From: Pseudomonas fluorescens
Lineage (GTDB): Bacteria; Pseudomonadota; Gammaproteobacteria; Pseudomonadales; Pseudomonadaceae
Assembly: GCF_900215245.1 (NCBI RefSeq)
Contig: NZ_LT907842.1
Coordinates: 620,001-684,000, forward strand
Direction: 5' to 3'
DNA length: 64,000 bases
The position numbers and the translations under genes are program-made. Position 1 is the stretch's first letter, and each line of letters starts with the position of its first letter. Below, in pieces: positions 10,666 through 41,899 of the stretch. The notes under the pieces are model-generated. The model made no database searches and was not told the DNA's origin. It was given only the letters and a program-made list of their open reading frames with translations.

Positions 10666-11035
10666 CAAGCGAAAAACCAAACACAGATCAGACAAGAAAC
10701 TCAAGTGCTTTCTTGCTCCCGTTTGGTTGAACCAACGCATTTTTTGAAAGCCCAAACCGCGCACGCGGATGGCAGCCGTTTTCCCGCCACAAGGGCGAAA
10801 AACGGTACGGGTGTTGCAGTGCTTGGAGCGAGCAACTGTCACCCAACAGGAATACGGCGCAGGGTTCTTTAATGGCCCGAGCCGAAGACTTCGGCATGGA
10901 AGCGGCGCGATGAGCTCCCTTCCTCCTGTCCCGAAGTTGTTATGCCAGGCCAAGGCCTGTTGTAAGTGCTTCAGGACGGAACGGTGGGCACCGTGATGGT
11001 GCCCAAATAAATATAGAATGTGGAGACAACCCCCC

Positions 11036-26610: not shown

Positions 26611-26660
26611 ATATGGTGTCCCAGGGCCGGTTCGAACGGCCAACCTTCCCCTTAGGAGGG
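26611..26660. repeat. attL: 50-bp repeat containing the tRNA-Arg 3' part
   Basis: Fifty bases identical to 41820-41869. They hold the 3' 38-47 nt of tRNA-Arg(CCT), from the anticodon loop to the CCA end, on the minus strand. This truncated copy marks the left junction of the 15.2-kb element. Confidence 0.93.
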
Positions 26661-26753
26661 TCATATCAAGCCCAGCCACCATTGAGGCGACCCAGTATTT
26701 ATTGGCCTTAGCGTCCGGTTGTGTCCGTAAAAACGACCCCGTATAGTTCTTTT

Positions 26754-26778
26754 TGCACCCACCATGCACCCATGGAAA
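26754..26778 (+). promoter_or_regulatory. Left arm-type integrase site
   Basis: A 25-bp sequence built of two TGCACCC units 11 bp apart and ending CATGGAAA. It matches 41756-41780 at 24 of 25 positions, in the same orientation, and lies 94 bp inside attL, as expected for integrase arm sites. It overlaps the 5' end of the integrase gene region. Confidence 0.65.
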
Positions 26779-26782
26779 CAGA

Positions 26783-27994
26783 TTGAAAGAGAAGCTAACA
26801 GCCAAACTGCTGGGATCACTGCAGGTCACTGGCAACGAATACGAAGTTCACGATACCACCGTCGGCGGTCTATTCGTGCGTGTTACTGCCGCAGGTGCAA
26901 AGTCTTACGTCGTCTCCTGGGCCCGTGGCCGGAAGAAGACTTTAGGCCGTGTCGGCATTCTCACGCTTGATCAAGCGCGCACTGAGGCAACTCAGTACCT
27001 CGCAGAAGCCAGATCACATGGAGAGCCTCTGGCGGTCACTCAAGGCCGAAGGGGCGCCACCCTGCCCTCCTTGCGTGACTTCATTGAAGACACCTATATG
27101 CCGTGGTTCAAGGCGCATCACAAAGGCCACGAGAAGACGCAGCACACCCTCAGTAATAACTTCGACCCAATCATGGCCCAGCGCCTGGACGCGATCACCG
27201 GGCGAGACCTGGAGCAGATCCGTACCGGATGGATGCAGGCCGGCAACAAGGCCTCGACGGTGAATAGAAAAATGGGCTCAATCAGTGGTGTTTTCAGTCG
27301 TGCCGTTGAGTGGGAGTACATCGATACACACCCGCTGACCAAGCTGAAACAGCTCAAAGTCGACTCAAAGGGGGTGATTCGCTACCTGGCTGCCGACGAG
27401 ACCAAGCGGCTACGCGAGGCCTTGGACGCTCGACAGGATGAAATGAGGGTCGAGCGTGAGAGTGCGAACACTTGGCGGACGGACCGCCACAGAGAGCCGA
27501 TGCCAAGCCTGCTGCAACTGCCCTTCACCGATCACCTGAAGCCAATGGTGTTGGTATCGTTGAATACCGGCATGAGGCGCGGAGAGCTGTTCGACCTGAA
27601 ATGGTCAGCGGTGAACTTCGACACGAAGACAATCACAGTCGCCGGGGCCACCACCAAGACAAGCGATACGCGCCACATCCCGATGAACAAGGAGACTATT
27701 GGTGTGCTGGAAGCCTGGAAGAAGCAGGTGAGCAAGTCGCCGTATGTGTTCCCAGGTCAGAGCGGCGGTCGCTTTGAGGACGTCAAAAGCGCCTGGCTCA
27801 AGTTGCTTGAGCGGGCGCAGATCGACGGGTTTCGCTGGCACGATATGCGTCACGACTTCGCGTCACGCCTGGTAGTGGCTGGCGTGCCGCTCAACACGGT
27901 GCGGGATCTGATGGGGCACGCCGATATCAAAATGACGCTGCGCTACGCTCACTTGGCGCCAGGGACAAAGGCGGCGGCGGTTGAGTTGATTTAG
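26783..27994 (+). CDS. Tyrosine recombinase (phage-type integrase)
   Basis: A 403-residue site-specific recombinase. An N-terminal DUF4102-like arm-binding region (VHDTTVGGLFVRVT) precedes a SAM-like core-binding domain (about 95-190) and the catalytic domain with Arg265 (TGMRRGE), His353 and Arg356 (HDMRHDFAS), His379 (LMGHADI) and Tyr388 (TLRYAH). No ATG fits; I start at TTG 26783, with GGAA 5 bp before it, while TTG 26753 is also open. It sits next to attL at a tRNA gene, the standard place. Intact. Confidence 0.92.
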   Translation: MKEKLTAKLLGSLQVTGNEYEVHDTTVGGLFVRVTAAGAKSYVVSWARGRKKTLGRVGILTLDQARTEATQYLAEARSHGEPLAVTQGRRGATLPSLRDFIEDTYMPWFKAHHKGHEKTQHTLSNNFDPIMAQRLDAITGRDLEQIRTGWMQAGNKASTVNRKMGSISGVFSRAVEWEYIDTHPLTKLKQLKVDSKGVIRYLAADETKRLREALDARQDEMRVERESANTWRTDRHREPMPSLLQLPFTDHLKPMVLVSLNTGMRRGELFDLKWSAVNFDTKTITVAGATTKTSDTRHIPMNKETIGVLEAWKKQVSKSPYVFPGQSGGRFEDVKSAWLKLLERAQIDGFRWHDMRHDFASRLVVAGVPLNTVRDLMGHADIKMTLRYAHLAPGTKAAAVELI

Positions 27995-28674
27995 CGTTTT
28001 ATACCCAAGCTCTCAATCAAATCATCAGACTCTCGCTCTGCACCCAGATAACCAATCCCATCGTCATCCTGAAATACCACTCCAGGGACTTTGATGTCTG
28101 GCGCTACTGAAGAGAGCGGCTTACCTATGTACTCTTCCACCTCTTCCGTAGATAAATCAGCACAAACTCCTTTGTCAGCAAGCTCCGCTGCCCGGTCCTT
28201 AATTAGCCCCCAAGCAAGCTTTATGGTTTTCCGCTTCGGGGTTACAAAAACAGTTTGACCGTCTTCGCTCTGCTGGAAAGCTCCCCCCATACGCTCGAAA
28301 GCGTAACTTCTGTAATCAGCATCTGCCTTGCTACGGACCTCATATTTTGTGAAAAAAATGTGGTTAGCACCCTCAAGCACGGAACGAATACAGCCCTCTT
28401 CATGATTTAGCAATGACGGGGTGAACATAGCCATATTAACCACCCTATCACTTTCAATCGGCGACCAAATTCGCTCGGACGCATACACAAGTGACTGCTC
28501 AGCGCTGGCCAGTACCACCTTACGGTCGTGCGCTAGGCGCGACACGGCAGACTCGATCACACCTGTGATGCTCTGGTGACCAACTCTAGACAAAAGCTCG
28601 ATAAGAAATTTGACGCGAGGGTCGAGCCTCAACGTCAGCGCATCGGTCTTCTTCGGCGTTTTTTTAATCGTCAT
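27991..28674 (-). CDS. Hypothetical protein with N-terminal ribbon-helix-helix-like motif
   Basis: A 227-residue protein, convergent with the integrase and overlapping its stop by 4 bp. I start at ATG 28674, where AGGAGA precedes; a longer frame upstream has no such site. The first 50 residues (DALTLRLDPRVKFLIELLSR, then TGVIESAVSRLAHDRK) look like a ribbon-helix-helix DNA-binding or antitoxin-like motif. The rest is acidic and unlike known families. It reads away from the AlpA-like gene, so the shared 149-bp gap may be a control region for integration and excision. Confidence 0.6.
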   Translation of the reverse strand: MTIKKTPKKTDALTLRLDPRVKFLIELLSRVGHQSITGVIESAVSRLAHDRKVVLASAEQSLVYASERIWSPIESDRVVNMAMFTPSLLNHEEGCIRSVLEGANHIFFTKYEVRSKADADYRSYAFERMGGAFQQSEDGQTVFVTPKRKTIKLAWGLIKDRAAELADKGVCADLSTEEVEEYIGKPLSSVAPDIKVPGVVFQDDDGIGYLGAERESDDLIESLGIKR

Positions 28675-28823
28675 CAGGTTCTCCTTGCCGCGAAGTATAC
28701 GCCTTGGTGAGTCCCATTCAATCCGAATATTACTGCACATAATTTGACGTGCAGTATTTCTATAGGTTAGCCTTCTGGCGACTGGCAAAACTCAATCCAT
28801 TAAACGCCAGACGGAGAATATCC

Positions 28824-29024
28824 ATGTCCCAAATTGCTCAACCTACCCCTCTCTCAGTGAGCGTTGAAGACGCTGCGAGGCTAGTCGGTCATTCCCGCTC
28901 AGGGATATATGAGGTGATCGCGCAAGGAGAGTTGAAGGCCTTCAAGCTCGGTAAACGCCGTCTAATCCTTGTAACTGAACTCAAAGCTTGGATCGAACGC
29001 GCAGCAAAGGTCGGCGCACGGTGA
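28824..29024 (+). CDS. AlpA/excisionase-like helix-turn-helix protein
   Basis: A 66-residue protein with a MerR/excisionase-type HTH: VSVEDAARLVGHSRSGIYEV, then ELKAFKLGKRRLI. GGAG precedes the ATG at 28824. Proteins of this type control integrase action or activate satellite genes (AlpA). It opens a rightward operon of four tightly linked genes. Confidence 0.82.
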   Translation: MSQIAQPTPLSVSVEDAARLVGHSRSGIYEVIAQGELKAFKLGKRRLILVTELKAWIERAAKVGAR

Positions 29025-29146
29025 AGTGCGAAAAGAATAAGGAGTGGGGATTGCGCAAGGCTGCGCGAGAGATTGCCAAGGCGGTGCTCGAACACCGCCT
29101 TAGCGAAAACACACTGGATAGCACCAACGTGAAGGGCAAACTATGA
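29021..29146 (+). CDS. Small protein of 41 residues, coupled
   Basis: GTG start overlaps the previous stop (GTGA), and its TGA overlaps the next ATG (ATGA). The product is basic and helical (WGLRKAAREIAKAVLEHR). Double coupling is the main evidence that it is real. No function recognised. Confidence 0.55.
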   Translation: MKCEKNKEWGLRKAAREIAKAVLEHRLSENTLDSTNVKGKL

Positions 29147-29379
29147 CACGTCATTCTTCAACAGAGCAAGACTGCAAGATGATGGAGGCCCTGCGAAACG
29201 GGCCGGTATCGACCATCGAAGCCGCCAAGGACCTGGATATTGTCCAGCCCCCCAACACCATCCGACGCCTCAGGAAAAAGGGTCACGAAATTCGCACCTA
29301 CTGGACGCACCAGTCCACCGAGCCAGGCCGGCCACCTCACCGCGTCGCCAAGTACATCCTGATGCGCGAAGCGTCGTAA
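29143..29379 (+). CDS. Small winged-helix DNA-binding protein
   Basis: A 78-residue protein with an HTH of the phage Helix_turn_helix type: VSTIEAAKDLDIVQPPNTIR, RRLRKKGHEI, followed by a beta wing (RTYWTHQSTEPGRPPHRVAKYIL). It overlaps the 41-residue gene by 4 bp. A regulatory role within the element is likely. Confidence 0.75.
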   Translation: MTRHSSTEQDCKMMEALRNGPVSTIEAAKDLDIVQPPNTIRRLRKKGHEIRTYWTHQSTEPGRPPHRVAKYILMREAS

Positions 29380-29407
29380 TCCAGAGCTCGTAGAGGTCTC
29401 CGCAGTT

Positions 29408-30295
29408 TTGCGGCGACCTCTTGCGCCTGCCTGTGAGCTGCCGGTGGGCTTCGGCCCGTTGGTTATCCAGCCGAATTACGCTGAGGTCGATTCAGTGGAA
29501 TGCCTAGCCACAAAACTACTTAGCCGTGGCGACACGGTTAGCATTGAGCGTGGGCAGCTCGTCATTCAACCGGCGAGCGGCAAGCCCGTACCGCCGGAGT
29601 GGATCAGTACCAACCGGGCCAGAATTTGCCGTGAAGTGCTTATATCGGTGGGCCTGGATGCATTCGAGTACGTAGGCTATTCAACTGGGCACTACGGCAA
29701 AACCCGGAGCGCCGGTATCACGCTTCAGTTTGTCTCGATGCTGTCCGGCCAATCTGTCTACGCAGTGTTCAACGCCGATCTGACGCGTCAGCGGAACACC
29801 GCTACGGCTAAGGCTGGCGCTATGCTGCCAAAAGGACAATTCCGCATCGGCAAGCGCAGCCACTTCTACAAGTTCTGGATGGGGACCGGCCTGCCTTTTC
29901 CTCGGCGGCTGGCGGCTATGCACGATTACATGGGGAAGCTACGTAGCGTCCTGGTGACTGGATCAGTGACTGATGACCGCTTCAAAGTCGGCAGTCTGCT
30001 GCCTGTCAGTCTGACCGCAGAGCAATTCGGAGCAGCCATTTTGCCGGACAACATCCGGACAATTTCCGGACAAGCGCCGGACAACTCCCGGACAAAAGTA
30101 CCGGACAAGGAAATGCCTACAGACCACGAACCAAAAGGGTTACAGCCGTTTCCAACTACGTGTGCTTCAAACTACGGAAACAAGGTAATAAGGGAGGACG
30201 GTTACAAGACCTTTCCTTACTCCCCCATACACACACCTAAGCCACCACAGGACCAGAGTGTTGATGAGTGGTTGGAGGCATACAGCTCAACCTGA
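29408..30295 (+). CDS. Replication-protein candidate with intragenic iterons
   Basis: Up to 295 residues; no ATG is suitable, so the start is TTG 29408 or GTG 29444. The core (ICREVLISVGLDAFEYVGYS, QFRIGKRSHFYKFWMGTGLP, FPRRLAAMHDYMG) is a family I know only as recurrent, uncharacterised proteins of Pseudomonas mobile elements. The C-terminal part includes LPDNIRTISGQAPDNSRTK, encoded by six CCGGACAA repeats (30044-30108). Because the repeats fall in different reading frames, the DNA, not the peptide, appears to be conserved; this recalls the lambda origin inside gene O. A replication-initiator role is inferred. Confidence 0.65.
   Translation: MRRPLAPACELPVGFGPLVIQPNYAEVDSVECLATKLLSRGDTVSIERGQLVIQPASGKPVPPEWISTNRARICREVLISVGLDAFEYVGYSTGHYGKTRSAGITLQFVSMLSGQSVYAVFNADLTRQRNTATAKAGAMLPKGQFRIGKRSHFYKFWMGTGLPFPRRLAAMHDYMGKLRSVLVTGSVTDDRFKVGSLLPVSLTAEQFGAAILPDNIRTISGQAPDNSRTKVPDKEMPTDHEPKGLQPFPTTCASNYGNKVIREDGYKTFPYSPIHTPKPPQDQSVDEWLEAYSST
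30044..30108 (+). repeat. Six CCGGACAA iterons inside a coding sequence
   Basis: Exact CCGGACAA at 30044, 30055, 30066, 30077, 30088 and 30101. The first five have a strict 11-bp period with variable 3-bp spacers; the last is 13 bp on. They occupy codon phases 0, 2, 1, 0, 2 and 0. Helical phasing and frame independence point to a protein-binding array such as a replication origin. Confidence 0.85.
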
Positions 30296-30332
30296 TCTAC
30301 TTTGCTGAGAAGGCACCGACCGCCAACAAATG

Positions 30333-30366
30333 AAAAAGGGCACCACCCTGTTTCGGGGTAGTGCCC
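30333..30366 (-). terminator. Terminator of the 121-residue gene
   Basis: On the minus strand GGGCAC-T-ACCC and GGGT-G-GTGCCC form a stem followed by five T residues, 34 bp after the stop at 30400. Confidence 0.8.
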
Positions 30367-30399
30367 TCGATGCTGCGAAGGTTTCGTTGCTTATCAGCC

Positions 30400-30765
30400 C
30401 TACTCCAACACCACCGCGCGGTATTGCTGATCGCCGCCCAGGTCATCCGAGCCGAACAGAGCCTGATTGACGGCCTTCCTACTCTCAAGCAGAAGGTCAT
30501 GCTCATCATGAGTGCCAATGTCCGCCGCAATCCACTCAGGGAGCTCCTTACGCCGCCGCATCTCGCTTAGGTGCGTCCACCACCGGGTAGCGTAACGACG
30601 CTCTGCAAGAATGAGTTCAACCACTAAGGTTCGTTGCTTCTCGGTGAAGAGGGGCAGGTGTACGACGCTGGAGTCGCCCACCTCAGTGCCTACCGAGCCC
30701 TCCGCTTCAAATTCGGACTTGTCTTGGCCTTTCAGGGCGTTACTGATATTTTGGTAAAGTTGCAT
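30400..30765 (-). CDS. Hypothetical protein
   Basis: A 121-residue acidic protein (MQLYQNISNALKGQDKSEFE...). The ATG at 30765 has GAAGGTGA before it; the longer frame has no such site. Residues 45-85 are helical and charged (TEKQRTLVVELILAERRYAT, RWWTHLSEMRRRKELPEWI). No domain recognised. It is read leftwards with the small gene at 30911 and ends at a terminator. Confidence 0.6.
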   Translation of the reverse strand: MQLYQNISNALKGQDKSEFEAEGSVGTEVGDSSVVHLPLFTEKQRTLVVELILAERRYATRWWTHLSEMRRRKELPEWIAADIGTHDEHDLLLESRKAVNQALFGSDDLGGDQQYRAVVLE

Positions 30766-30910
30766 GACGTTCACCTTCAAGTTGCGTCGTGTGATCGCCA
30801 GGCCGCTGTTAGCGCAGCGGCTTGGCACCTCTTCTGAGATGGCCCAATTCAGGACCATCGACCTGATCGGCTAATTTCTCAGCCGATCAATCGGCGAAAT
30901 ATTCCGCCGG

Positions 30911-31129
30911 TTACTGTTTACCCTTCTCGCTGATCCAGCCTGCCGCCCAGCTCATGGGGTCTTTCGACTCCATCGGATCTAGTGGCTTGCCGTCTCGCGC
31001 CGCCTGTTTACCCTCCTCCTCTGTCTCTGTGTGAATCCACATCGTGGTGTTCTTATAGCCAGCTGCGCGTTGTCGCTCTTTGAATGCGCGCTGCCGCAGC
31101 GTGTTGGGGCTTTCGGTCTTGTCAGTCAT
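30911..31129 (-). CDS. Small DNA-binding-like protein, probable self-repressor
   Basis: A 72-residue protein. LRQRAFKERQRAAGYKNTTM followed by WIHTETEEEGKQAARDG suggests a basic arm, a short beta strand and helices, as in ribbon-helix-helix repressors. Two identical 16-bp operator-like repeats lie directly upstream (31141-31188), which supports autoregulation. Related small proteins are frequent in prophages; the function is inferred. Confidence 0.6.
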   Translation of the reverse strand: MTDKTESPNTLRQRAFKERQRAAGYKNTTMWIHTETEEEGKQAARDGKPLDPMESKDPMSWAAGWISEKGKQ

Positions 31130-31140
31130 CTAGCCTTCTC

Positions 31141-31188
31141 ATTACCGGTAACGCAAACCATACTGTCACACCATTACCGGTAACGCAA
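31141..31188 (-). promoter_or_regulatory. Twin operators ATTACCGGTAACGCAA
   Basis: Two exact 16-bp copies (31141-31156 and 31173-31188), each with the perfect palindrome TTACCGGTAA, with centres 32 bp apart (about three turns). They start 12 bp upstream of the 72-residue gene and are the obvious control site for it. Confidence 0.75.
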
Positions 31189-31362
31189 GACGAGGATTCT
31201 AAAGATTGTAGGATCTCGGATCGAAGCTTCTGATGTGCCAAGCAGATTTGAGCTTGATTCGATCGATACAGATCATAAGTTCACACAGAACCAAGGTTAA
31301 TGGAGTCTGCACAAAAATCTTCTTGATGGCATAATGCCCTCGAACATCAAGGATGGCTAAAA

Positions 31363-32379
31363 ATGACCGTAGATAGCTCCGCTGAAATCTTAAATAATCT
31401 CCACATAGATAGAACAATAAGAGCACGATACTTATTTACATTTACCCCACTACTTGTGGCAGCTTTATTAAAATTCTATATAGAAGTAAATTTTAACCCA
31501 AATCAAAATTTAAAGTTAACGATAGCAGAATATCTGTACCCAGCCCTTATAGCCATTAGCTTTATTTCCGCATTGCTTTGGTACCTACATACCGGCTTCA
31601 GAGATAGAAAAATACTCGAACAACAAGCAAACTTTGCCACACCACAAGCAAAGAGCGAACTAGCATACAACGAAAAAATCTCCGAATTAGAAAGCAAAAT
31701 AAAACATCTACAAACCTTAAACCCTGAAAGAATTGAGAGCACAAGAGAACATACACACGCCATTCAGAGCACATTTAATTCCGATCTAAACACAGCTGAA
31801 AAGCACAACTATCGACAACGGCTAAATTTAATAATCAATCTATCAAGAGACCTATCCTTCAAAAGGATAAAAAATGAAATTAGTCGATCAGGGTTTCGTG
31901 GCATTGTTTATCTTACAACTGGTGTATGCCTAGCTATCCTAGGTATCCTAGGACTGGCCGGCTTTGTATTTCCCGGTGCATTCGGGACTTACTCAAAGCT
32001 ATTTGATAGCGTGCCCCCAGTTGGCGCGAGCGAATATGCAGTTGCAATTCACTACACCTCAAGATTTTCATTAATTATCTCAATTGAGATTTTAGCGTAC
32101 TTTTTTTTGCGACTGCATAAGTCGAACCTAGTCGACGCTAAATACTATCAAAATGAGCTGACCAACCTCGAGCTAAAATATATATCACTAGACGCCGCAC
32201 TTTACTTAAAACGTGCAGATATAACACACAAAGTAATTTCAGAGTTTTCTGAAACCGAAAGAAATCACATTCTCGAAAAAGGCCAATCAACTATTGAACT
32301 AAAGAGGGTCGAATTAGAAAAAAATCAATTCATTGAAATCACTAAATCACTAGTATCCCTAGCACCGAAATCCAAATGA
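31363..32379 (+). CDS. Four-TM coiled-coil membrane protein (AT-rich cargo)
   Basis: A 338-residue protein. Hydrophobic segments lie at about 23-42, 57-76, 180-202 and 234-251; residues 82-175 and 258-330 are charged, helical and coiled-coil-like (YNEKISELESKIKHLQTLN). Base composition is far more AT-rich than the rest of the window, with many AAA, ATA and TTA codons, a sign of recent transfer. It is followed 122 bp later by the GIY-YIG gene of the same composition. No known family; a defence-type sensor/effector pair is one possibility. Confidence 0.75.
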   Translation: MTVDSSAEILNNLHIDRTIRARYLFTFTPLLVAALLKFYIEVNFNPNQNLKLTIAEYLYPALIAISFISALLWYLHTGFRDRKILEQQANFATPQAKSELAYNEKISELESKIKHLQTLNPERIESTREHTHAIQSTFNSDLNTAEKHNYRQRLNLIINLSRDLSFKRIKNEISRSGFRGIVYLTTGVCLAILGILGLAGFVFPGAFGTYSKLFDSVPPVGASEYAVAIHYTSRFSLIISIEILAYFFLRLHKSNLVDAKYYQNELTNLELKYISLDAALYLKRADITHKVISEFSETERNHILEKGQSTIELKRVELEKNQFIEITKSLVSLAPKSK

Positions 32380-32501
32380 CACCCTCCCTTATAATTACCA
32401 GCACTGAGGTCATGATGTATAACCTTCCAAAGTTTTCATAAAGCGAACGAAAATCAAAAGAAACGAAACGTTTACCACTGAACCGATATGGAGATCGCTC
32501 G

Positions 32502-33353
32502 ATGACACCAGGCTACATATACGTCCTGCAAAACGAGCTCTTTGGGCCCTACGTAGTTAAGATTGGTCTAACAACATTAGAACCCGACTTAAGAGCACTG
32601 CAGCTTTACAGCGGCTCATCAGGCGTACCAACACCTTTCGATATTTTCACTGCCTACTCAGTAGGTGACTGCAAACTTGCAGAAAAAACAATTCACAAAC
32701 GCTTAAAAGCGTTTAGGATTAACGGGAGGCGAGAGTTTTTTCGATCCGCACCGTCAGTAGCAGCGTCACTAGCGTATGAAACTTGCGCAGAAATCAATAA
32801 CAGGCTGGGACTTACTCCGCCAGAACCCTTCATACTAAAAATGAAAAAAAGCAAGAACAATAGAAAAGCAACAGAAGAGATAGAGCGTAAAATTACTTTA
32901 CCTGAGGACAGTTTCAGGTCAGTCAAAATTGAGCTTCATAAGCTAAGAGCGAGTCCACCGGGAATCAGTAAATTGACCCCTGAGCAAGAGGATAGGATAA
33001 AAGTAGTAGCAATGCTACTTTCCAACATCTACCCTTCCGCACTGCAAGATTGGTTAGAAGATTTTACGCGAGACCGCACCCCTGAACGCGAGCTTTGCAT
33101 TTGGGAGCACATCACCAAAGCCTATCTCACAATTGAAGAAATAGAGATTGCCAGTGATGATTTTAAGCTTGAGGCGTTTGCTTTGCTCTTGCTTCGGTCT
33201 ACATCAACAACGGCAGAGGTCTTAGCTGATATGACCTTAAGACACTTCACCTACAAATCAGCCAAGCGACTCCTACAAGCATACGAGCTCAAACCAAAGC
33301 CACTATTAGTTACAACAAAACGCCCAGTCTGGGCAACAATAAACCTTAACTAA
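32502..33353 (+). CDS. T5orf172/GIY-YIG nuclease-domain protein
   Basis: A 283-residue protein with an N-terminal T5orf172 (MUG113-like) domain at about residues 3-90: GYIYVLQN, VVKIGLTTLEPDLRALQLYS, the AEKTIHKRL helix with the catalytic-type Glu, and GRREFF. This is a branch of the GIY-YIG nuclease superfamily found in phages and anti-phage loci. The C-terminal 190 residues are helical with no match I recognise. AT-rich like its upstream partner. Confidence 0.78.
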   Translation: MTPGYIYVLQNELFGPYVVKIGLTTLEPDLRALQLYSGSSGVPTPFDIFTAYSVGDCKLAEKTIHKRLKAFRINGRREFFRSAPSVAASLAYETCAEINNRLGLTPPEPFILKMKKSKNNRKATEEIERKITLPEDSFRSVKIELHKLRASPPGISKLTPEQEDRIKVVAMLLSNIYPSALQDWLEDFTRDRTPERELCIWEHITKAYLTIEEIEIASDDFKLEAFALLLLRSTSTTAEVLADMTLRHFTYKSAKRLLQAYELKPKPLLVTTKRPVWATINLN

Positions 33354-33398
33354 TAAGCCACTACTAACCGATATAAAATTTCAAATGGATATAGTTAA

Positions 33399-33803
33399 TC
33401 AAGGGGATTTCACTAGATATTTCGGGGCAGGGATATAAAACTTATTCTTCAAGTAGTGGTAACAAGTATCCACGAGATGGATAGAGTCGCCTCTGTGGGG
33501 CCACTCAAAATGAAGTACAATATCGCTAGTCAAGTATTGACCACTAATCGACGTAGTATAGTTCGGCAAACCGAGATGATAGTGCCAGAGATTATTTGAG
33601 CTTGTATAGGCAAAATCAGGATGCTTCGGATCAAGCCCTTTCCAGGAATGAGAAATCTTCCCAGGGTAATTGCGAAAATCTCTCAAGCCGACAGACATGA
33701 ACGTCGCAACAAAACTCACTACAGCGTTCTGTTGATCTTCAGGATAATTCTGAAATTCCAGAGCAAACAGATCGTTGTAGGAGGCAGAGTAAGGCAATGG
33801 CAA
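33399..33803 (-). CDS. Toxin-like protein of a two-gene module
   Basis: A 134-residue protein starting with TTG directly after the stop of the 61-residue gene. It has the block LWHYHLGLPNYTT, then DIVLHFEWPHRGDSIHLVDTCYHYL and FYIPAPKYL, a compact alpha/beta pattern like RelE/YafO-type toxins. The small upstream gene with no gap fits an antitoxin-toxin order. I am not sure of the toxin family. Confidence 0.55.
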   Translation of the reverse strand: MPLPYSASYNDLFALEFQNYPEDQQNAVVSFVATFMSVGLRDFRNYPGKISHSWKGLDPKHPDFAYTSSNNLWHYHLGLPNYTTSISGQYLTSDIVLHFEWPHRGDSIHLVDTCYHYLKNKFYIPAPKYLVKSP

Positions 33804-33989
33804 TCATCCTTCATGAGTACCCAGATTGGCTTCAGCACGCTTCGCTGCGGCCAAGATATGTTCTCGAATCTGCTCCCCAGTAAGGCCCTGAGGGATGACA
33901 TAACGAGGCATATTGCGCGCCGTTTTCATGCGCTCTACGTCTAATGAGACGTTTTCTTTGGAGCTCTTCGTATGTGTCATGTTTTCCAT
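33804..33989 (-). CDS. Antitoxin-like small protein
   Basis: A 61-residue charged protein (VSLDVERMKTARNMPRYVIP, then QGLTGEQIREHILAAAKRAE) immediately upstream of, and abutting, the 134-residue gene. Size and order suggest a type II antitoxin. No fold recognised. Confidence 0.5.
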   Translation of the reverse strand: MENMTHTKSSKENVSLDVERMKTARNMPRYVIPQGLTGEQIREHILAAAKRAEANLGTHEG

Positions 33990-34660
33990 GATGCACCCCG
34001 CCTAGGGGAATGAGACCAGCAATGTGGATGCTAGCTGATAGGTAGAATTTCGCACTCGCCATTCGTCAGGCAGGTTGTGAATCCGCTTTCGCTCACCACA
34101 CCCACAGGATCCGGGAGCTTCCGACTCATCTTGAATCAAGTCAACAGGTGAATACCACGACCCGACTACTGGTTGATTGCCAAGACATTAGGCGAGCGGG
34201 CCTTCCTATATAAATAGGACCGCCTGAGCGTCTATCCGTTCAGAGTTGCACGTGACGCCCGCTGTGAGACGGATTGATCTCACTGAGACCATTTGGTCTC
34301 ACTGAGTGCGGAAAACAACACACAGAGTAGAAATCAACACAGGGGGTGGTCAACATCACCATACCTTTGCTGCAAGACCCGGGATGGAGCCTCCTCTCTT
34401 CCCTTCGAGACAGACCATATGAGCCGAATCGGATCTGATCATCTGCTTCGCGCCGCTTTGTCAGATCAGCAGGACGGATAAATGTCCCGGCAGGTTTGGC
34501 CCTCATCTGCCAATCAGCAGGATCGTAAATCGGAAATCTTCGAGGGCACTCCATCAACTAAGACGAAAGGGTATAGGCCGAGCCCTTAAAATGCGGTTAT
34601 GGTGGCACTCTGCCTGTCCGATTGGATCCAGCTGGGTCCAGGCAGGAATGGAGAGCTGCA
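33990..34660. other. 671-bp non-coding control-like region
   Basis: No supported gene. It holds TCCTAT-ATAA-ATAGGA (34204-34219) and a cluster of nested repeats at 34264-34306, upstream of the KilA-N gene. Confidence 0.45.
34264..34306. promoter_or_regulatory. Nested operator-like repeats
   Basis: GTGAGA...TCTCAC (34264-34283) overlaps a TCTCACTGAG direct repeat (34278 and 34297, 19 bp apart) that flanks GAGACCA-TT-TGGTCTC (34285-34300). Overlapping symmetric and direct repeats of one motif suggest cooperative repressor binding. Confidence 0.5.
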
Positions 34661-35413
34661 ATGAACGAACAGATGGATCTTATCCCTAGACGGGTAGAAG
34701 GCGCATTGATCCACCAGCGCACTGCTGATGGATACGTGAATGCAACTGCAATGTGCAGTGCCTCAGGCAAAGGATTTCACGATTACTCGAGGCAGGTAGT
34801 GACCGGAGAGTTCCTATCAGAACTTTCTAGGTCGAACGGCATCCCCATTGATTCATTGGTAATCACCGTAATAAACGGCCCTGTCGAAGCACGTGGGACT
34901 TGGGTTCACCCGGACGTTGCAATCAACCTAGGTCAATGGTGCTCCCCACGTTTCGCAGTAGCGGTAGCTACCTGGGTAAGAGAGTGGCTTGCAGAAAAAG
35001 CAAACCCACAAAACTTGCCGTACCATATGAAAAGGTATATGGCCAACAGAGGGGCCGTTCCACCTACTCATTTTTCAATGCTGAACGAAATGGCGCTAGT
35101 GTTGATAGGTCCTATGGAGGATGCTGGCTACAGGCTGCCAGACAGAATGCTCCCGGACATCTCGGAAGGCCGTATGTTTTGCAAGTGGCTTAGGGATACC
35201 AAAGGTATCGATACCGATGCCCTCCCAACATACCAACATCGGTTTGAAGATGGCCGGGTAGTGTCGCCAAAGCTTTATCCCAACGAGGTGCTCGGTGACT
35301 TTAGAGACCATTTTCACAGAGTCTGGCTCCCTCAAAAGGCTGTCGCATACTTTAAAGATCGCGACGCCCAAGCGCTTCAATACCTCCCACTATTAATTGG
35401 CAACAACAAATAG
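34661..35413 (+). CDS. KilA-N domain protein
   Basis: A 250-residue protein whose first 120 residues form a KilA-N DNA-binding domain (VEGALIHQRTADGYVNATAM, DYSRQVVTGEFLSELS, then GTWVHPDVAINLGQWCSPRF). The C-terminal half is of the phage antirepressor type but is not assignable. ATG at 34661 with GGAGAG upstream. KilA-N proteins occur in phage regulatory regions. A long array of stem-loops follows its stop. Confidence 0.88.
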   Translation: MNEQMDLIPRRVEGALIHQRTADGYVNATAMCSASGKGFHDYSRQVVTGEFLSELSRSNGIPIDSLVITVINGPVEARGTWVHPDVAINLGQWCSPRFAVAVATWVREWLAEKANPQNLPYHMKRYMANRGAVPPTHFSMLNEMALVLIGPMEDAGYRLPDRMLPDISEGRMFCKWLRDTKGIDTDALPTYQHRFEDGRVVSPKLYPNEVLGDFRDHFHRVWLPQKAVAYFKDRDAQALQYLPLLIGNNK

Positions 35414-35415
35414 CA

Positions 35416-35881
35416 CCTGACAGCAGGCCGGAACAGGCACGCGACACGGTGATCCACCACTGGTGGAAGATGCGTCCAAAACTGGACGCATCAAATCCGC
35501 GCCACGTTTTCACATCTCGCAAAACGTGGCGCGGAACCTGGCATACCAAAATGGGAGGCCAGGTTCAGCCCCCTGGGGGTTGGATGGATTTGAAATCCGA
35601 CCAACTTCCCCCACTGGGGAGAGTTCCTCAAATTGATGAAAAGTCCCACCACTCCACAGTCACTTCCTGCACCGCAGGATGAATGACTGGGCTGAAAACT
35701 CAGCCGTGTATCACTTTGGCTGTCGCCAACTTACTGCAACAAAAATCCCCTCGCCTCGACCAGCAAAACCAACTATTTCAGTCCCGTTCCGTCCCGTTAC
35801 ATGTAACACATGAGGTGCACCTAAAAAGCACTGGATAAATGATCAGATCATGCCTAATGTGAGTTTTTGAGCCACTCAAAA
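35416..35881. ncRNA. Array of consecutive stem-loops, possible structured RNA or cis element
   Basis: From the KilA-N stop almost to the next gene the DNA is a chain of inverted repeats: 35454-35466, 35469-35492 (10 bp, loop AAAC), 35496-35535 (15-bp perfect), 35535-35565 (8-9 bp), 35569-35579, 35579-35605, 35606-35621, 35665-35679, 35690-35705 (loop AAAC), 35716-35729, 35796-35807, 35813-35822, 35839-35851 and 35865-35881. The stems differ in sequence, and none ends in a T run, so they are not terminators or copies of one repeat. Transcription is not shown; type is a guess. Confidence 0.6.
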
Positions 35882-35900
35882 CCCATTCGAGGCAGCACCT

Positions 35901-36077
35901 ATGAACACAGCTAAGCCCGCCCGAGGACGTCAGCACAAACCAACTCGCTCCGAAGTTGCTGCCGCCTGGGGCCGCCTTCGCGAAGCCGCAGCAGACGGAA
36001 GCGTTCAAGCATCCGCCCTGCTGATAGCCCTTGCTGAAAACAAACCAGTCATCGCCATGGAATCGCCAGCCGCATGA
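35901..36077 (+). CDS. Small protein of 58 residues
   Basis: ATG at 35901 with GAGGCAGC upstream; its TGA overlaps the ATG of the DUF5681 gene (ATGA). The product is Ala/Arg-rich (RGRQHKPTRSEVAAAWGRLR). Coupling and codon use support it. It opens the rightward run of phage-like genes. Confidence 0.6.
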   Translation: MNTAKPARGRQHKPTRSEVAAAWGRLREAAADGSVQASALLIALAENKPVIAMESPAA

Positions 36078-36490
36078 CTGATCGCGATAAAGCCGGCAAG
36101 TGGAAGCCAGGACAGTCGGGTAATCCCGGCGGCCGATCCGGCCAGACGCAAGAGCTGCGCGCCCGGCTCGCGGAAGGTGCAGACGCCGTGACAAAGAAGG
36201 TTCTGACAGCAGCCAAGAAGGGCGATATGCAGGCTTGCCGACTGATCCTTGAGCGCCTGGTACCGCCAATCAAGCCAACTGCCGAGACAGTGTGCTTCGA
36301 ACTCGACGACACCGACCTACCCAGCGCAGCCAAATCAATCCTTCGCGCAGTTGCCGCCGGCGAGCTACCGCCCGACCAGGGCAAAGCATTGATCGAAGGG
36401 CTAGGCGCTGTTGCCCGGGTAATCGAAGTTGCCGAGCTACAGAAGGCCGTTGAAGAACTCCGTGAACAGATGGAGGGAATGCGGCAATGA
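36074..36490 (+). CDS. DUF5681 domain protein
   Basis: A 138-residue protein with the DUF5681 signature KWKPGQSGNPGGR at residues 10-22, followed by a helical region (AKKGDMQACRLILERLVPPI) and a coiled coil at the end (VAELQKAVEELREQMEGM). Such proteins lie near phage terminase genes and may act like small terminase subunits, but this is not shown. Overlaps both neighbours by 4 bp. Confidence 0.78.
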   Translation: MTDRDKAGKWKPGQSGNPGGRSGQTQELRARLAEGADAVTKKVLTAAKKGDMQACRLILERLVPPIKPTAETVCFELDDTDLPSAAKSILRAVAAGELPPDQGKALIEGLGAVARVIEVAELQKAVEELREQMEGMRQ

Positions 36491-36918
36491 GCATTAAATG
36501 GATGCGCGCCGAGCTCAAGCGAATTGCAGAAAAGATCGGCGCCGAAGACGAAGAAACAGTGCTCGTTATGTTGACGGTGGTGGACTGCAGGGTTGACGCG
36601 GTTGAGGAGGAGATGGACTACCCCAACACAGTGGGCCACTCCTTCAACTATCCCGTCCTCGGCGTACAGACGGTCATGCACTTCCCACTGTGCACCATGA
36701 ACAGCTATGACGCGGCCAATCTGGCAGAGGCGTTCATTCTCCACGTCCGCGCAATTGAAAGCCTCCGCCGCCCCGCTCCGGTAGGTGTGATGGATATGCG
36801 GCCATTCCCAAGTTCTGGTGCCTGGATCTTCCCGCCATTGGCTGACGGGCAAGACATCAAAAGTCATGTCGCCGAACAGTACCGGCTGATCCTCGATGCC
36901 CGCCATGAACATCCGTAG
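36487..36918 (+). CDS. Hypothetical protein
   Basis: A 143-residue protein, coupled (ATGA) to the DUF5681 gene. Acidic, soluble, no domain recognised. The next frame overlaps its end. Confidence 0.6.
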   Translation: MSIKWMRAELKRIAEKIGAEDEETVLVMLTVVDCRVDAVEEEMDYPNTVGHSFNYPVLGVQTVMHFPLCTMNSYDAANLAEAFILHVRAIESLRRPAPVGVMDMRPFPSSGAWIFPPLADGQDIKSHVAEQYRLILDARHEHP

Positions 36919-37114
36919 CCAGGTGGCCAAGCTGCGTCAGCAATCCGGGCTCACTCAATTCAATCGTGACGTGCGAGAGATCAGCGCCCTTATGGATGAG
37001 TTGCACCTAGCAGCAGCCGGCGGTGGCACCCGAGAAAACGTTTCCCTACTCGAGATCCTGAGCGAAGCCTCAGACCAAAACCGGCCGAACCACGGCCAAA
37101 CAATCAAAAGGTAA
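36905..37114 (+). CDS. Small hypothetical protein
   Basis: A 69-residue helical protein (MNIRSQVAKLRQQSGLTQFN) overlapping the previous gene; an ATG at 36896 would add three residues. It lies in the same operon. Function unknown. Confidence 0.5.
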   Translation: MNIRSQVAKLRQQSGLTQFNRDVREISALMDELHLAAAGGGTRENVSLLEILSEASDQNRPNHGQTIKR

Positions 37115-37118
37115 CTCA

Positions 37119-37961
37119 ATGAAAATCGGCAAACGATCCGTCCTCAAAGTTGGCTTGGCCAACCTCCATTACTCCGAATACGAGCACTCCCAGGTAGAGG
37201 CAAGAACCTTCAATATTCAGCGCCCCGATGGCACCAAAGGAACCTGGCAGGCCGGTGGCTTGCTGAAGTCGGTTCGCCATTTGCAGGGCTTGTCGCTAGA
37301 GGCGTTCAAGGACCTCGGAGAAGAAATTCTCTCGATTCGCGAGAACAAGGACCTCAACGCCGCAGCCATTGAGCGCAAGGGCAAGGAGCAGATCGATGGA
37401 ATCATCCCCGCCCTGATGCCGGCGATGGAGAAGGCGGCAAAAGATATGCTCACGTTGGCACAAACAGTGGCCAGCGGCTTTGCAGCGGTGACGCCTCGCG
37501 CCAGCTCAGACGTTGTTGGCTTCCTGGCTGATCAGGAGCTACGCGCCATCGTGCGATGCCTCAAGCCGGAAGAGCGCCAGCGACTAGTCGCTGAGGCGCG
37601 CGCAGGCAGTCACCCTGATGTTGTAGAGGCGGTGCTAAGGGCAAACCCAATGCTCTCCGGACTATCGCCAGAGGCGGCTGACAGTCTTTCTCGCGCAGGT
37701 ATTGCCGCGTCCCGCGCCGAAGACATTGAAGGGCTAAAGCAGATGCTAGCGATCTACGATGACGTGCTGGCCACCGCCTCCAATGCTGGTGTCGCACTGA
37801 GCGGCATGGTTGCCAATTCGAATGGGTACACCGGCCGGTTTGAGAAGTGGCGATCGGGCTGCGAGGGCTCCGAAGCGCTTCGTGACTGGTTGAGCAAACT
37901 CCCGGCAAAGCATCAACCAAAATCTGGCGCCGCGGAAAGCAAGCAATCCGATACCGAATGA
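37119..37961 (+). CDS. Hypothetical protein
   Basis: A 280-residue soluble protein starting 4 bp after the previous stop. The middle is helical (AFKDLGEEILSIRENKDLNA; ALMPAMEKAAKDMLTLAQTV). No known family. Its size and place among phage-like genes suggest a structural or regulatory role, without direct evidence. Confidence 0.6.
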   Translation: MKIGKRSVLKVGLANLHYSEYEHSQVEARTFNIQRPDGTKGTWQAGGLLKSVRHLQGLSLEAFKDLGEEILSIRENKDLNAAAIERKGKEQIDGIIPALMPAMEKAAKDMLTLAQTVASGFAAVTPRASSDVVGFLADQELRAIVRCLKPEERQRLVAEARAGSHPDVVEAVLRANPMLSGLSPEAADSLSRAGIAASRAEDIEGLKQMLAIYDDVLATASNAGVALSGMVANSNGYTGRFEKWRSGCEGSEALRDWLSKLPAKHQPKSGAAESKQSDTE

Positions 37962-38013
37962 CCAATAAGCGCGGGGCGTATCACATCGATCGCCCTCCAG
38001 CGGAGAGACGCAT

Positions 38014-38364
38014 ATGACCACTGCCAAGATCCGCCGAATGCTGGAAGTCATCCGTGATGAGCTCAAGCCCTGCGAGATGCTGGTTGTAACCGTACCGCCA
38101 GACAGCGCCCGCCCCGTCACCCATTGGTGGGCCTCATTGGAGCTGGCCAGAAAGCACCGAACCGTCGCTATGAGCTGCGACGCATCGCTAGCTGCAGAGA
38201 TTGTTCAGCACCTCCATGACCTCGACAGAAATTCACAGAAAACGGCGGTCTTGTTCCCCGAGCACACCACCCCGAGATCAGATTATTTGATCACCCCAGG
38301 CCAGGGCAGTACCGCCGCGCAGTTAGCCGCTGATGCCTATCGAGAAATGAGAAAAACAGAATGA
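38014..38364 (+). CDS. Hypothetical protein
   Basis: A 116-residue protein with GCGGAGA before the ATG. It overlaps the next gene by 4 bp (ATGA). No domain recognised. Confidence 0.6.
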   Translation: MTTAKIRRMLEVIRDELKPCEMLVVTVPPDSARPVTHWWASLELARKHRTVAMSCDASLAAEIVQHLHDLDRNSQKTAVLFPEHTTPRSDYLITPGQGSTAAQLAADAYREMRKTE

Positions 38365-38708
38365 CCACATACCAAGAACGATTTACCGAGGCGTGCAAGA
38401 CGCAACGTTTTCAATCGCACGAGCTGATACAAGGCCCGGATGCCGGATATCTGGTTTGGGAAGTGCAGCACCCCAGCAATGGGCAGAAGGTCGTCATCGA
38501 CGGCCCGTTCTTTACCGAGGAGGAAGCCCGGGTTTCGGCCGACCTGATGCGGGGAACATTCCGCGGCGCCCGGGCCAGCGAAGCGATCTACAACCGGGTG
38601 TGGAACTACGACCCGCGCCAGGAGCAACTGACTATCGACCAGGCGCATATGTCGCGCGCAGTTCTTGCCATTCGCCTGGGGCTTCCAGCCCCCTCCACCA
38701 ATCCATAG
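38361..38708 (+). CDS. Hypothetical protein
   Basis: A 115-residue protein with a repeated small alpha/beta look (GYLVWEVQHPSNGQKVVIDG, PFFTEEEARVSADLMRG). Coupled to the gene before it and followed after 8 bp by the tail gene. Function unknown. Confidence 0.6.
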   Translation: MTTYQERFTEACKTQRFQSHELIQGPDAGYLVWEVQHPSNGQKVVIDGPFFTEEEARVSADLMRGTFRGARASEAIYNRVWNYDPRQEQLTIDQAHMSRAVLAIRLGLPAPSTNP

Positions 38709-38716
38709 GAGGCCCC

Positions 38717-39313
38717 ATGACCGCTACAGCAATTGAATACGCTCCACTCACCACCATCAAACTGTGTGGGCAGCTACGACAGTTCGGTAAGTCCTACCAG
38801 TTCTCCGTCCGAACGCCAGCCGAGGCGATCAAAGCACTGTCAGTGCAGATCCCAGGGTTTGAACGGTTTCTGTCTAACGCAAAGTCTCGCGGGCTCGTGT
38901 TCGTGGTCTTTCGAGGCAAGAAAAATATCGGTGAGGGTGAGCTTGGATTTCAAGGCAAAGGCGACATCATCATTGCCCCTGTGATCTTAGGCAGCAAACG
39001 CTCTGGAGTTCTGCAAACAGTCATCGGCGCCGTGCTGATCGCAGCCTCATTCTTCACGTTCTGGGCACCTCCAGTATCAGCAGGTCTATTTGCATCTGGC
39101 GTGGGTATGGTCGCCGGCGGTGTTATTCAAATGCTCAGCCCGCAGGCAGGTGGCCTCAAGACCAGCGCAGCGCCGGAGAACACCCCAGGCTATGCCTTCG
39201 GCAGTGCTAAGAACACCACGGCATCCGGAAACCCAGTACCGCTGTGTTACGGCAAGCGGCGGGTAGGCGGCGCGCTCATTAGTGCCGCGATCTATGCAGA
39301 GGATCAAGCTTGA
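38717..39313 (+). CDS. Lambda I-like tail assembly protein
   Basis: A 198-residue protein of the lambda gpI/TAI family: an N-terminal beta-grasp part (IKLCGQLRQFGKSYQFSVRT), a glycine-rich hydrophobic stretch (TVIGAVLIAASFFTFWAPPV), and the C-terminal SGNPVPLCYGKRRVGG. AGGAGG precedes its ATG. In phages this gene sits next to gpK and gpJ in the tail-tip cluster; here no other tail gene is present. The ORF is intact, which argues for a retained function such as altering a helper phage's tail. Confidence 0.85.
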   Translation: MTATAIEYAPLTTIKLCGQLRQFGKSYQFSVRTPAEAIKALSVQIPGFERFLSNAKSRGLVFVVFRGKKNIGEGELGFQGKGDIIIAPVILGSKRSGVLQTVIGAVLIAASFFTFWAPPVSAGLFASGVGMVAGGVIQMLSPQAGGLKTSAAPENTPGYAFGSAKNTTASGNPVPLCYGKRRVGGALISAAIYAEDQA

Positions 39314-39345
39314 GCATCCGATAGATTTACGAGCCTTATGCGCCC

Positions 39346-40017
39346 TTAAATATATTTAGCCTCTAACGCAGAAAGCTTTCTAGCAATCGCATCAGTGGCC
39401 GCGTAGATAGCGCCCCTTTTCTCGGCCACTGTCTCATCCGTTTTCCCACTGAAGATCTGACCTACGCCACGCGTGCTAGTCGGCTTGCGGCTATCGGGGG
39501 TCACATACTTTTGTTTTGCCTGCTCATGCACCAGCTCTCTAATGCGAGCGGAAAGATCATTAGAATAGTTTTGCCATTCCCAATCGTTTTTAACCACTAC
39601 CTTATCAAGCAGAACACACTGGTCTCTGAACGATCGTAAAGCCTTACCCACGAGGCCCGTTTCGCCTAATTCGGTCGATTGATCAGATCCCTCTGCATAC
39701 GAACGAATCCATCGAGCCTCTAAGATATTCAAAGCAGCTTCGACCTCTCTGAGCGCCACATTAGCATCCCAAACAACGCCTAAAGCCTTTCCATGAATGA
39801 TTTGCAGCTTCCAGCTATTCCATCCCTTAAAAGCAAGCCCCGCGAGCAGAACCGCTGCAATGGCTTGAATAAGAGCAGATACAGAATTTATTAAACCGAA
39901 TGCCTTATCCGTGCTCTCAGGCCTTCCGTCCGTGAGCGTCGAATAAAAAATCGCACAAACAAGTATGGCGAAAGCAGCCAACAATCCATAGAAACCAAAA
40001 GAGTAGTGATTTTTCAT
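39346..40017 (-). CDS. Two-TM membrane protein
   Basis: A 223-residue protein with membrane segments at about 8-28 and 43-65, and a long soluble, helical C-terminal part. It runs against its neighbours. Base use is slightly more AT-rich than the flanks. No family recognised; a defence or exclusion role is only a guess. Confidence 0.65.
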   Translation of the reverse strand: MKNHYSFGFYGLLAAFAILVCAIFYSTLTDGRPESTDKAFGLINSVSALIQAIAAVLLAGLAFKGWNSWKLQIIHGKALGVVWDANVALREVEAALNILEARWIRSYAEGSDQSTELGETGLVGKALRSFRDQCVLLDKVVVKNDWEWQNYSNDLSARIRELVHEQAKQKYVTPDSRKPTSTRGVGQIFSGKTDETVAEKRGAIYAATDAIARKLSALEAKYI

Positions 40018-40188
40018 CTAGAAAAAGGCCCAAATCAAATAGTCATGATACCTATCACTAGGGTGTTTCACATGGTATGCCTATCCAGATACAGGCTTAT
40101 TTTGCCTTTTCCGTGCTTTTCGCTTGATAAGTAACACCCATAGTGCAACAGTATTAGTAGAACGCCCTAACTGATACAGGCACCCATC

Positions 40189-40803
40189 ATGTTCATCCGC
40201 GCATACCTCCGAGCCTCCACCGAAGAACAAGACGCCGGCCGTGCCCGGGCGTCGCTCGAGCAGTTCGCCAGCGACCATAACAAGGTCATTGCAAGCGAGT
40301 ACCTGGAGAACGCCAGCGGAGCGACTGCGGACCGGCCTGAATTGCTGCGCCTGCTCAAGGATGCCCGGAAGGGTGATGTACTGCTGGTGGAGTCAATAGA
40401 CCGCCTCTCACGCCTTCCTGTGGAGGATTGGCAGAAGCTAAAGACCGCTATCGACTCCAAGGGCTTGCGCATCGTCGCGCTTGACCTGCCGACCAGCCAT
40501 CAGGGAATGCAGGACACTAAAGGTGACGAGTTCACCAGCCGGATGCTGGGCGCAATCAACTCGATGTTGGTGGAGATGATGGCGGCGATCGCACGCAAGG
40601 ATTACGAGCAGCGTCGCGAGCGACAGGCACAGGGCATCGAGAAGGCGAGAGCCGCCGGCAAGTACCAGGGCCGGCCAGTCGACGAAGATCTGCACAAGCG
40701 CGTTTCGGAACTGCTCGGCGCCGGCCTGGGCATTCGCGCGACAGCGCGGCACGCCAACTGTTCAACCACTACGGTATTACGTATTCGTGACCTAGTACGG
40801 TAA
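40189..40803 (+). CDS. Serine recombinase (resolvase/invertase type)
   Basis: A 204-residue recombinase with the catalytic Ser10 (AYLRASTEEQ), LLVESIDRLSRL, the linker helix (EQRRERQAQGIEKARAAGKY) and a C-terminal HTH (GIRATARHANCSTTTVLRI). Size matches Tn3/Pin-type enzymes. No res or inversion sites are recognised next to it. Confidence 0.88.
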   Translation: MFIRAYLRASTEEQDAGRARASLEQFASDHNKVIASEYLENASGATADRPELLRLLKDARKGDVLLVESIDRLSRLPVEDWQKLKTAIDSKGLRIVALDLPTSHQGMQDTKGDEFTSRMLGAINSMLVEMMAAIARKDYEQRRERQAQGIEKARAAGKYQGRPVDEDLHKRVSELLGAGLGIRATARHANCSTTTVLRIRDLVR

Positions 40804-40841
40804 TAACACAACTCACCTTCCTCACCAGCTTAGGACTACGA

Positions 40842-41729: not shown

Positions 41730-41755
41730 GCTAGATGCCGACTAAAGGCTTCGCC

Positions 41756-41780
41756 TGCACCCGCCATGCACCCATGGAAA
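41756..41780 (+). promoter_or_regulatory. Right arm-type integrase site
   Basis: TGCACCCGCCATGCACCC followed by ATGGAAA matches the left arm (26754-26778) at 24 of 25 positions and lies 40 bp inside attR. A worn copy with the same offset to the tRNA is found at 26551 in the older element. Confidence 0.65.
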
Positions 41781-41819
41781 ACGAGAAGGGGAAGCAGAAA
41801 TGGCTGCAGGCGTTGAATA

Positions 41820-41869
41820 ATATGGTGTCCCAGGGCCGGTTCGAACGGCCAACCTTCCCCTTAGGAGGG
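41820..41869. repeat. attR: 50-bp repeat in tRNA-Arg
   Basis: Identical to 26611-26660. It is part of the intact tRNA gene, so insertion left the tRNA functional. Confidence 0.93.
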
Positions 41870-41899
41870 GGATGCTCTATCCAATTGAGCTACTGGGAC
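41823..41899 (-). tRNA. tRNA-Arg (CCT)
   Basis: Acceptor GTCCCAG pairs with CTGGGAC, the D arm reads AGCTCAATTGGATAGAGC, the anticodon loop CTCCTAA gives CCT, and the T loop TTCGAAC is regular. CCA is encoded. It is the integration target of both elements. Confidence 0.96.

Follow-up and report, generated by a model that had tools for sequence, protein, structure and literature searches.

In bacteriophage lambda, the iterons and the AT-rich region of ori lambda lie in the middle of the initiator gene O (PMC7466680). In the PLE satellite of Vibrio cholerae, whose replicon is of the RepA_N type, the DNA-binding domain varies in step with the iterons and is exchanged with them as one unit, the C-terminus being shared (PMC8263062), and SGI1, an integrative island whose replication follows its excision, has an HTH_17 gene ahead of rep and an iteron origin close to rep (PMC7433901). 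Capsid-forming phage-inducible chromosomal islands (cfPICI) have been named as a class (PMC11389934). The locus described below lies in a 64,000-nucleotide stretch of the Pseudomonas fluorescens contig NZ_LT907842.1 (positions 620,001 to 684,000; hereafter the window), in which a gene of a tRNA-integrated 15.2-kb element carries an array of short direct repeats within its own coding sequence. An earlier reading of the sequence alone (the sequence-only reading) took the array for the replication origin of the element and its host gene for the initiator. With a probability of roughly 0.78, the gene is the replication initiator of a satellite-like element and carries the origin in its own coding sequence, in a manner resembling lambda O.

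An iteron array inside a coding sequence

The gene contains six plus-strand copies of the 8-bp word CCGGACAA at offsets 0-11-22-33-44-57, so that steps of 11 bp are followed by a final step of 13 bp. The copies fall in codon phases 0, 2, 1, 0, 2 and 0 and encode PDN, IRT, SGQ, PDN, SRT and PDK, and a recount reproduced all of these features as the sequence-only reading had given them. The word occurs seven times in the window, once outside the array (55992, minus strand), while 2.33 occurrences are expected on both strands and none of 100 shuffles reaches seven; the pair CCGGACAA-N3-CCGGACAA yields four overlapping matches across the 6.5-Mb genome, all at the array.

The same geometry is found in homologues. 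When six 8-mers were fitted at these preset offsets within the last 400 bases of each frame, with A favoured at positions 5, 7 and 8, the 57 distinct loci scored 28 to 40 of 40, and 30 of them at least 36; this count leaves out a fragment (L020) and a decayed locus in which three copies remain, 11 and 13 bp apart (L043). These arrays occupy the 3' portion of the gene, with the first copy in codon phase 0 in 54 of the 57 loci, the others having been fitted in phase 2 (L079, L080) or phase 1 (L058) with an uncertain register. The word is lineage-specific yet largely common to the copies of one array (CCGGACAA, GGGCACAA, CCATACAA, CCCGATAA, AGCGACAA and CCAGACAA, with CCGGGTAA and CCCGACAA in further genomes), and several marine arrays are uneven at iteron positions 1-4. 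The array had been expected to persist in homologues as CCGGACAA units; the spacing is indeed kept, but the word varies by lineage.

The array is followed by a second motif, box 1 (AACTACGTG), which lies 53 bp past the start of iteron 6 and 110 bp, or ten 11-bp steps, past that of iteron 1. Across 56 loci (L058 being omitted as well), the best match to box 1 in a 100-bp stretch lies at exactly +53 from the sixth iteron in 50, and at 52, 52, 49, 54, 69 and 93 in the others; at exactly +53, at least seven of the nine letters are present in 47 of the 56. In most loci box 1 is followed by an AACYACG-like word and then by a GTAA-containing stretch, and the AT content of homologues is 60% at +120 to +150 and 42-55% in the remaining 30-bp bins. 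The fixed distance between iteron 6 and box 1 suggests a single nucleoprotein site.

Selection on the DNA of the array

Each peptide was recoded 300 times with the codon usage of its own gene and scored by the best free fit of five copies at 11-bp pitch, without the offsets being supplied. The natural sequence outscores all 300 synonymous recodings in 48 of 58 loci, from homologues spanning Pseudomonas to SAR92. Few recodings match most of the exceptions (one each in L019, L033 and L047, two in L050, three in L046, five in L058, six in L014, 13 in L049 and 27 in L055), and 214 match the decayed copy in L043. Eight of 12 further loci also beat every recoding and L096 is matched by one of 300; the remaining three do not stand out, namely L099 (256 of 300; array absent), L103 (257; a core fragment) and L106 (123; array mostly beyond the frame).

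Synonymous codon identity was compared in 49 loci, eight short ones being dropped, and its observed-to-expected ratio is about 2 over most of 30029-30215, 1.2-1.55 at the 5' end and 1.0-1.33 elsewhere in the gene. Among the 1043 pairs whose proteins are less than 50% identical, the ratio is 1.89 in the array, 1.69 in the spacer, 2.02 in the boxes and 1.45 over 30200-30226; upstream it falls in the range 1.04-1.11, and for the conserved C-terminal DEWLEAY part it is 0.99. These ratios indicate conservation at the protein level for the last 22 residues and mainly at the DNA level for the preceding 185 bp. The 65 bp first assigned to selection therefore include the array but are too short, since the array is only the first part of the constrained tract.

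In L106 (genome G1192), an array of eight words, with words 2 and 7 weaker and spacing of 11, 11, 11, 11, 11, 13 and 13 bp, crosses a TAG after the third word and continues with five copies beyond the reading frame at the same pitch; the copy may be decayed, yet pitch and word are retained. L106 and L105 are distant homologues in which a DEWLAEY motif is N-terminal instead of C-terminal. Two related islands of G860 (L100 and L102; L109, L110), which share 97% identity along about 1 kb, retain the array, the boxes and the C-terminus without the core and are possibly dependent derivatives, and a fragment in G964 carries an array scoring 39 of 40.

The recoding controls, the two-fold codon-identity excess even between proteins less than 50% identical, and the L106 array past its stop codon support the claim of the sequence-only reading that selection acts on the DNA of the array and not on its peptide. 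The opposite case, a conserved PDN/RT peptide without DNA repeats, was looked for in the homologues and none was seen, L099 lacking both.

Covariation and exchange of helix and iterons

The protein contains a helix (residues 168-180) that is proposed to recognize the iterons. Among 121 proteins (that of the window and the 120 listed of 156 matches, the array type being deduced from the peptide), residue 173 is D in all 66 proteins of PD type (CCGGACAA) and K or R in all 53 of GH type (GGGCACAA); the two GD-type proteins have K in a variant helix. At the DNA level, all 47 loci with D have C at iteron position 2, and all 10 with K or R have G there, these 10 coming from Pseudomonas, Paraglaciecola and a third lineage (L079, L080); the underlying motif search admitted only D, K or R at 173, and close relatives are included. 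In new genomes, read from the printed copies, D or E accompanies C in L092-L096 and K accompanies G in L106, and L105 (E) is mixed. Such covariation is as expected for an amino acid facing a base, so residue 173 may contact iteron position 2 directly.

Helix and array also appear to move together. In 155 pairs of opposite iteron class that are at least 85% identical over residues 44-155 (85-99%), identity is 0.90 over residues 100-155, drops to 0.59 (156-167), 0.42 (168-195), 0.40 (196-211) and 0.27 (212-235), and returns beyond residue 235 to 0.62 and 0.76, near the 0.65 and 0.79 of 386 same-class pairs; these pair counts omit the two GD proteins. The drop and subsequent recovery indicate a joint exchange of helix and array. 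On a tree of residues 44-155 (117 rows), the iteron class changes 15 times, against a mean of 40 and a minimum of 33 after shuffling; on a tree of residues 156-211, which hold the helix, it changes twice. Covariation and joint swapping both point to the host gene as encoding the reader of the array, as had been supposed.

The integrated element and its relatives

The element, integrated in a tRNA gene, spans 26611-41819 between 50-bp direct repeats, the right one inside that gene, which refines the 15 kb estimated before to 15.2 kb. Related islands in other Pseudomonas genomes (L083-L085) have the same integrase, the HTH_39 gene and several more genes in common with it; capsid, portal and TerL genes were found neither in 10 scanned open reading frames (ORFs) of the window element nor in these close relatives. 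The gene for the proposed initiator is present in 16 of 398 Pseudomonas genomes (one of them with a fragment); in wider samples the counts are 17 of 398 (family), 12 of 390 (order) and 3 of 369 (class), its own genome being included every time. It occurs at 39 named loci, including Stutzerimonas, Microbulbifer, Colwellia, Paraglaciecola, Zhongshania, Neptuniibacter and SAR92, and in four viral contigs. An integrase match lies upstream on the same strand at 26 of these 43 loci, the rest being on short contigs or having no integrase within the test distance.

Relatives of the element look like satellites. In L061-L063, the proposed initiator gene is surrounded by genes for an integrase, an AlpA-like protein, an HNH-like protein, a TerS-like protein, TerL, a portal and an HK97-type capsid, and by a protease-like gene recognized by reading (capsid, portal and TerL were called with Pfam on L063; L061, L062 and the AlpA-like gene with tblastn). 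The small-terminase-like gene adjoining TerL (L063:7307-7768) matches PF05119 with an E-value of 6e-4 and 20.6 bits, below the cut-off of 24.7. The IMG/VR contig L060 closes into a circle through an exact 127-bp overlap with the att core inside it; this is expected of an excised circle, and tandem integrated copies would give the same overlap.

Sister elements carry other genes in the same slot. In the G392 island, whose structural proteins are 95-99% identical to their counterparts in L061-L063 (HNH 67%), the place between the integrase and capsid genes is taken by the gene for an HTH_36-like protein, whose match (E 0.0018) falls short of the curated cut-off. Right after this gene, TGGGATTTTTTCC repeats stand at 10547, 10569 and 10643 and, inverted, at 10698 (L088:10547-10712), so that gene and repeats may form another initiator-like module. 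HTH_36 is a domain of a phage protein termed replication protein in PMC4936722. The right end of the G392 island (L082:7950-8170) holds remnants of both iteron classes and tandem ACTACGTG-like boxes beside a tRNA-like sequence. In vB_Pae_U1, whose integrase is 61% identical, a gene annotated as replication protein O and a primase lie downstream of a cox gene.

The gene and its product

The frame is open from TTG 29408, as the 295-residue protein of the sequence-only reading requires, but GTG 29495 is the likelier start because many homologues have 266 residues and begin at that position. Wherever a source names the gene, it is called only a hypothetical or uncharacterized protein. In Pfam, PHROGs and NCBIfam the window protein is without a match. 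The 33 homologues compared with the initiator families of Pfam and PHROGs gave no match either, so that membership of the lambda O family by descent was not found, and remote descent is possible; plasmid iteron Rep families and RepA_N gave no match in Pfam (33 homologues) or NCBIfam (5 homologues).

AlphaFold2 (AF2) models give a confident core (predicted local distance difference test, pLDDT, about 90), a stretch with pLDDT below 50 at residues 216-274 and a C-terminal helix at 285-293, and the disorder spans the array and the boxes. This predicted layout would suit an initiator with an origin-bearing linker. The core resembles an OB fold, its best matches, which are weak, being the single-stranded DNA (ssDNA)-binding PrgE and RadD. 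Upstream of the gene, at 29390-29480, two hairpin-like sequences, one with a TTCG loop, look similar by eye in close relatives.

Table 1. Features of the proposed initiator gene and of the element that carries it (window coordinates).
Feature	Position	Strand	Remark
Proposed initiator gene	29495..30295	+	266 residues; 295 if read from TTG 29408
Folded core, predicted OB-like barrel plus helices	29495..30040	+	AF2 pLDDT about 90
Helix 168-180 (LAAMHDYMGKLRS), proposed recognition helix	29909..29947	+	codon of residue 173 at 29924-29926
Proposed origin, strong synonymous constraint	30029..30215	+	about 185 bp
Iteron 1 (CCGGACAA)	30044..30051	+	
Iteron 2	30055..30062	+	
Iteron 3	30066..30073	+	
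Iteron 4	30077..30084	+	
Iteron 5	30088..30095	+	
Iteron 6	30101..30108	+	starts 13 bp past the start of iteron 5
Box 1 (AACTACGTG)	30154..30162	+	
Box 2 (AACTACG)	30170..30176	+	
A/G-rich stretch (ACAAGGTAATAAGG)	30180..30193	+	modestly AT-rich part of homologues
Conserved C-terminal motif QSVDEWLEAY	30254..30283	+	without synonymous constraint
attL, copy of the 3' part of tRNA-Arg(CCT)	26611..26660		50 bp, identical to 41820-41869
attR	41820..41869		within tRNA-Arg(CCT) 41823-41899 (-)
Tyrosine integrase	26753..27994	+	PF00589, E 6.8e-30
AlpA/excisionase-like HTH_17 protein	28749..29024	+	PF12728, E 7.6e-13
Winged-helix HTH_39 protein	29143..29379	+	PF14090, E 3.8e-23

Opposite the integrase, a 265-residue protein with weak similarity to an Arc-like repressor (PHROG 582, E 0.13) is encoded at 27991-28788 on the minus strand. 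A KilA-N protein (34622-35413, plus strand) matches PHROG 6287, a BstA abortive-infection replication inhibitor, at E 1e-60, and the element may thus carry an anti-phage gene. A serine resolvase or invertase (PF00239; 40189-40803, plus strand) lies near the right end of the element.

A candidate replication origin and its alternatives

We infer the identity of the array as a replication origin from its anatomy, its genomic slot and its analogy to known origins. The array could instead be an operator, through which the protein would act as a repressor or activator on its own gene and control transcription or element immunity without any origin. Such an operator would explain the DNA-level constraint and the helix/iteron covariation equally well, but it is unlikely, because the likely start is about 550 bp upstream of the array, which belongs to the 3' portion of the gene, because an initiator better suits the second motif at its fixed distance, the disordered linker and the conserved C-terminal motif, and because the slot in G392 holds an HTH_36-like protein followed by another repeat array. 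The carriers are phage-satellite-like and would need packaging recognition, and some phages are known to have a packaging site within the gene of their small terminase, so that the array might be a pac-like site read by a terminase-like protein of the same gene. This is very improbable, since the capsid-bearing relatives have the separate small-terminase-like gene by TerL, as in L063, and G1208 seems, by reading, to have a separate small terminase too; the gene was rejected as the small terminase of the element on the same ground, the L063 match being below the PF05119 cut-off.

It is also quite improbable that the array is a centromere-like site, or a single-strand or recombination site of an OB-like protein, that maintains the excised circle rather than initiating its replication: the resemblance of the core to an OB fold, with its weak PrgE and RadD matches, and the occurrence of 11-bp direct-repeat arrays in plasmid partition sites would fit such a role, but the fold evidence is weak and replication-type genes occupy the slot in sister elements. 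Linkers are often repetitive, and the repeats could be a by-product of a repetitive peptide or of a recent duplication; this is hardly credible, because all three phases are used, the peptide is unrepeated, recoding destroys the pattern, the word varies by lineage yet is common to the copies of one array, and the L106 array is kept beyond a stop codon.

Several points weigh against the identification of an origin and its initiator. Its most exposed step leads from site-specific binding to replication; the protein belongs to no known family, its fold matches are at background level, and AT-richness next to the iterons is only modest. The relatives are not independent of each other, and support for the exchange of helix and array is limited, as supported branches yield only four independent pairs, all of them in agreement (p 0.125). 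L099 (G763) is a true exception, a full-length distant homologue with the C-terminal motif and with neither array nor peptide, and it lowers confidence in the origin.

If the gene does encode the initiator, the integrase and the AlpA-like protein would first excise the element. The folded N-terminal core would then bind the six iterons, whose spacing of about one helical turn would line the protomers up on one face of the DNA, and strand opening, or else a second contact, would occur at the fixed-distance AACTACGTG/AACYACG/GTAA stretch. The disordered linker, for which the origin codes, would tolerate varied peptides, and the short C-terminal DEWLxxY helix would then recruit the host replication machinery, with helicase recruitment and replication as the outcome. 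Since the recognition helix and the iterons are about 100 bp apart, recombination could swap both as one cassette and change replicon specificity in one step.

We lean slightly towards an undescribed family of replicons whose helix and iterons are exchanged as a single cassette of about 240 bp within one gene, acidic residues at 173 going with C at position 2 and basic ones with G; satellites would switch replication specificity in one recombination step, perhaps escaping interference or incompatibility, and the shortened elements of G860 and G964 would use the initiators of intact elements. No earlier description of such a family was found in open-access papers, a weak negative that covers that literature only. 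The proposed replication module would serve satellite-like elements in several gammaproteobacterial families, one DNA stretch meeting the demands of protein coding and of a fixed 11-bp binding geometry at once, and its paired protein and DNA variants form a natural series that allows a recognition rule to be deduced and put to the test.

Comparison with known systems

The capsid-bearing relatives L061-L063 carry the genes typical of cfPICIs, namely integrase, AlpA-like, capsid, portal and TerL genes in about 10-12 kb; the window element may differ, as capsid, portal and TerL genes were seen neither among its 10 scanned ORFs nor in L083-L085. As in SGI1, an HTH_17 gene precedes the proposed initiator gene, but in SGI1 oriV lies downstream of rep and has four 17-bp iterons, and the two initiators are set side by side by arrangement alone. 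As in lambda O, the array lies inside the coding sequence of the proposed initiator; unlike lambda O, the 33 homologues match no Pfam initiator family, and the locus has 8-bp words at 11-bp pitch with a final 13-bp step, a predicted OB-like core and a second motif at a fixed distance. PLE has three semi-palindromic iterons of about 30 bp in an intergenic ori, whereas the proposed origin here is intragenic and the specificity cassette occupies about 80 codons without interruption. Whether the specificity of satellite replicons evolves by compact cassette swaps, as reported for PLE, thereby becomes a testable question.
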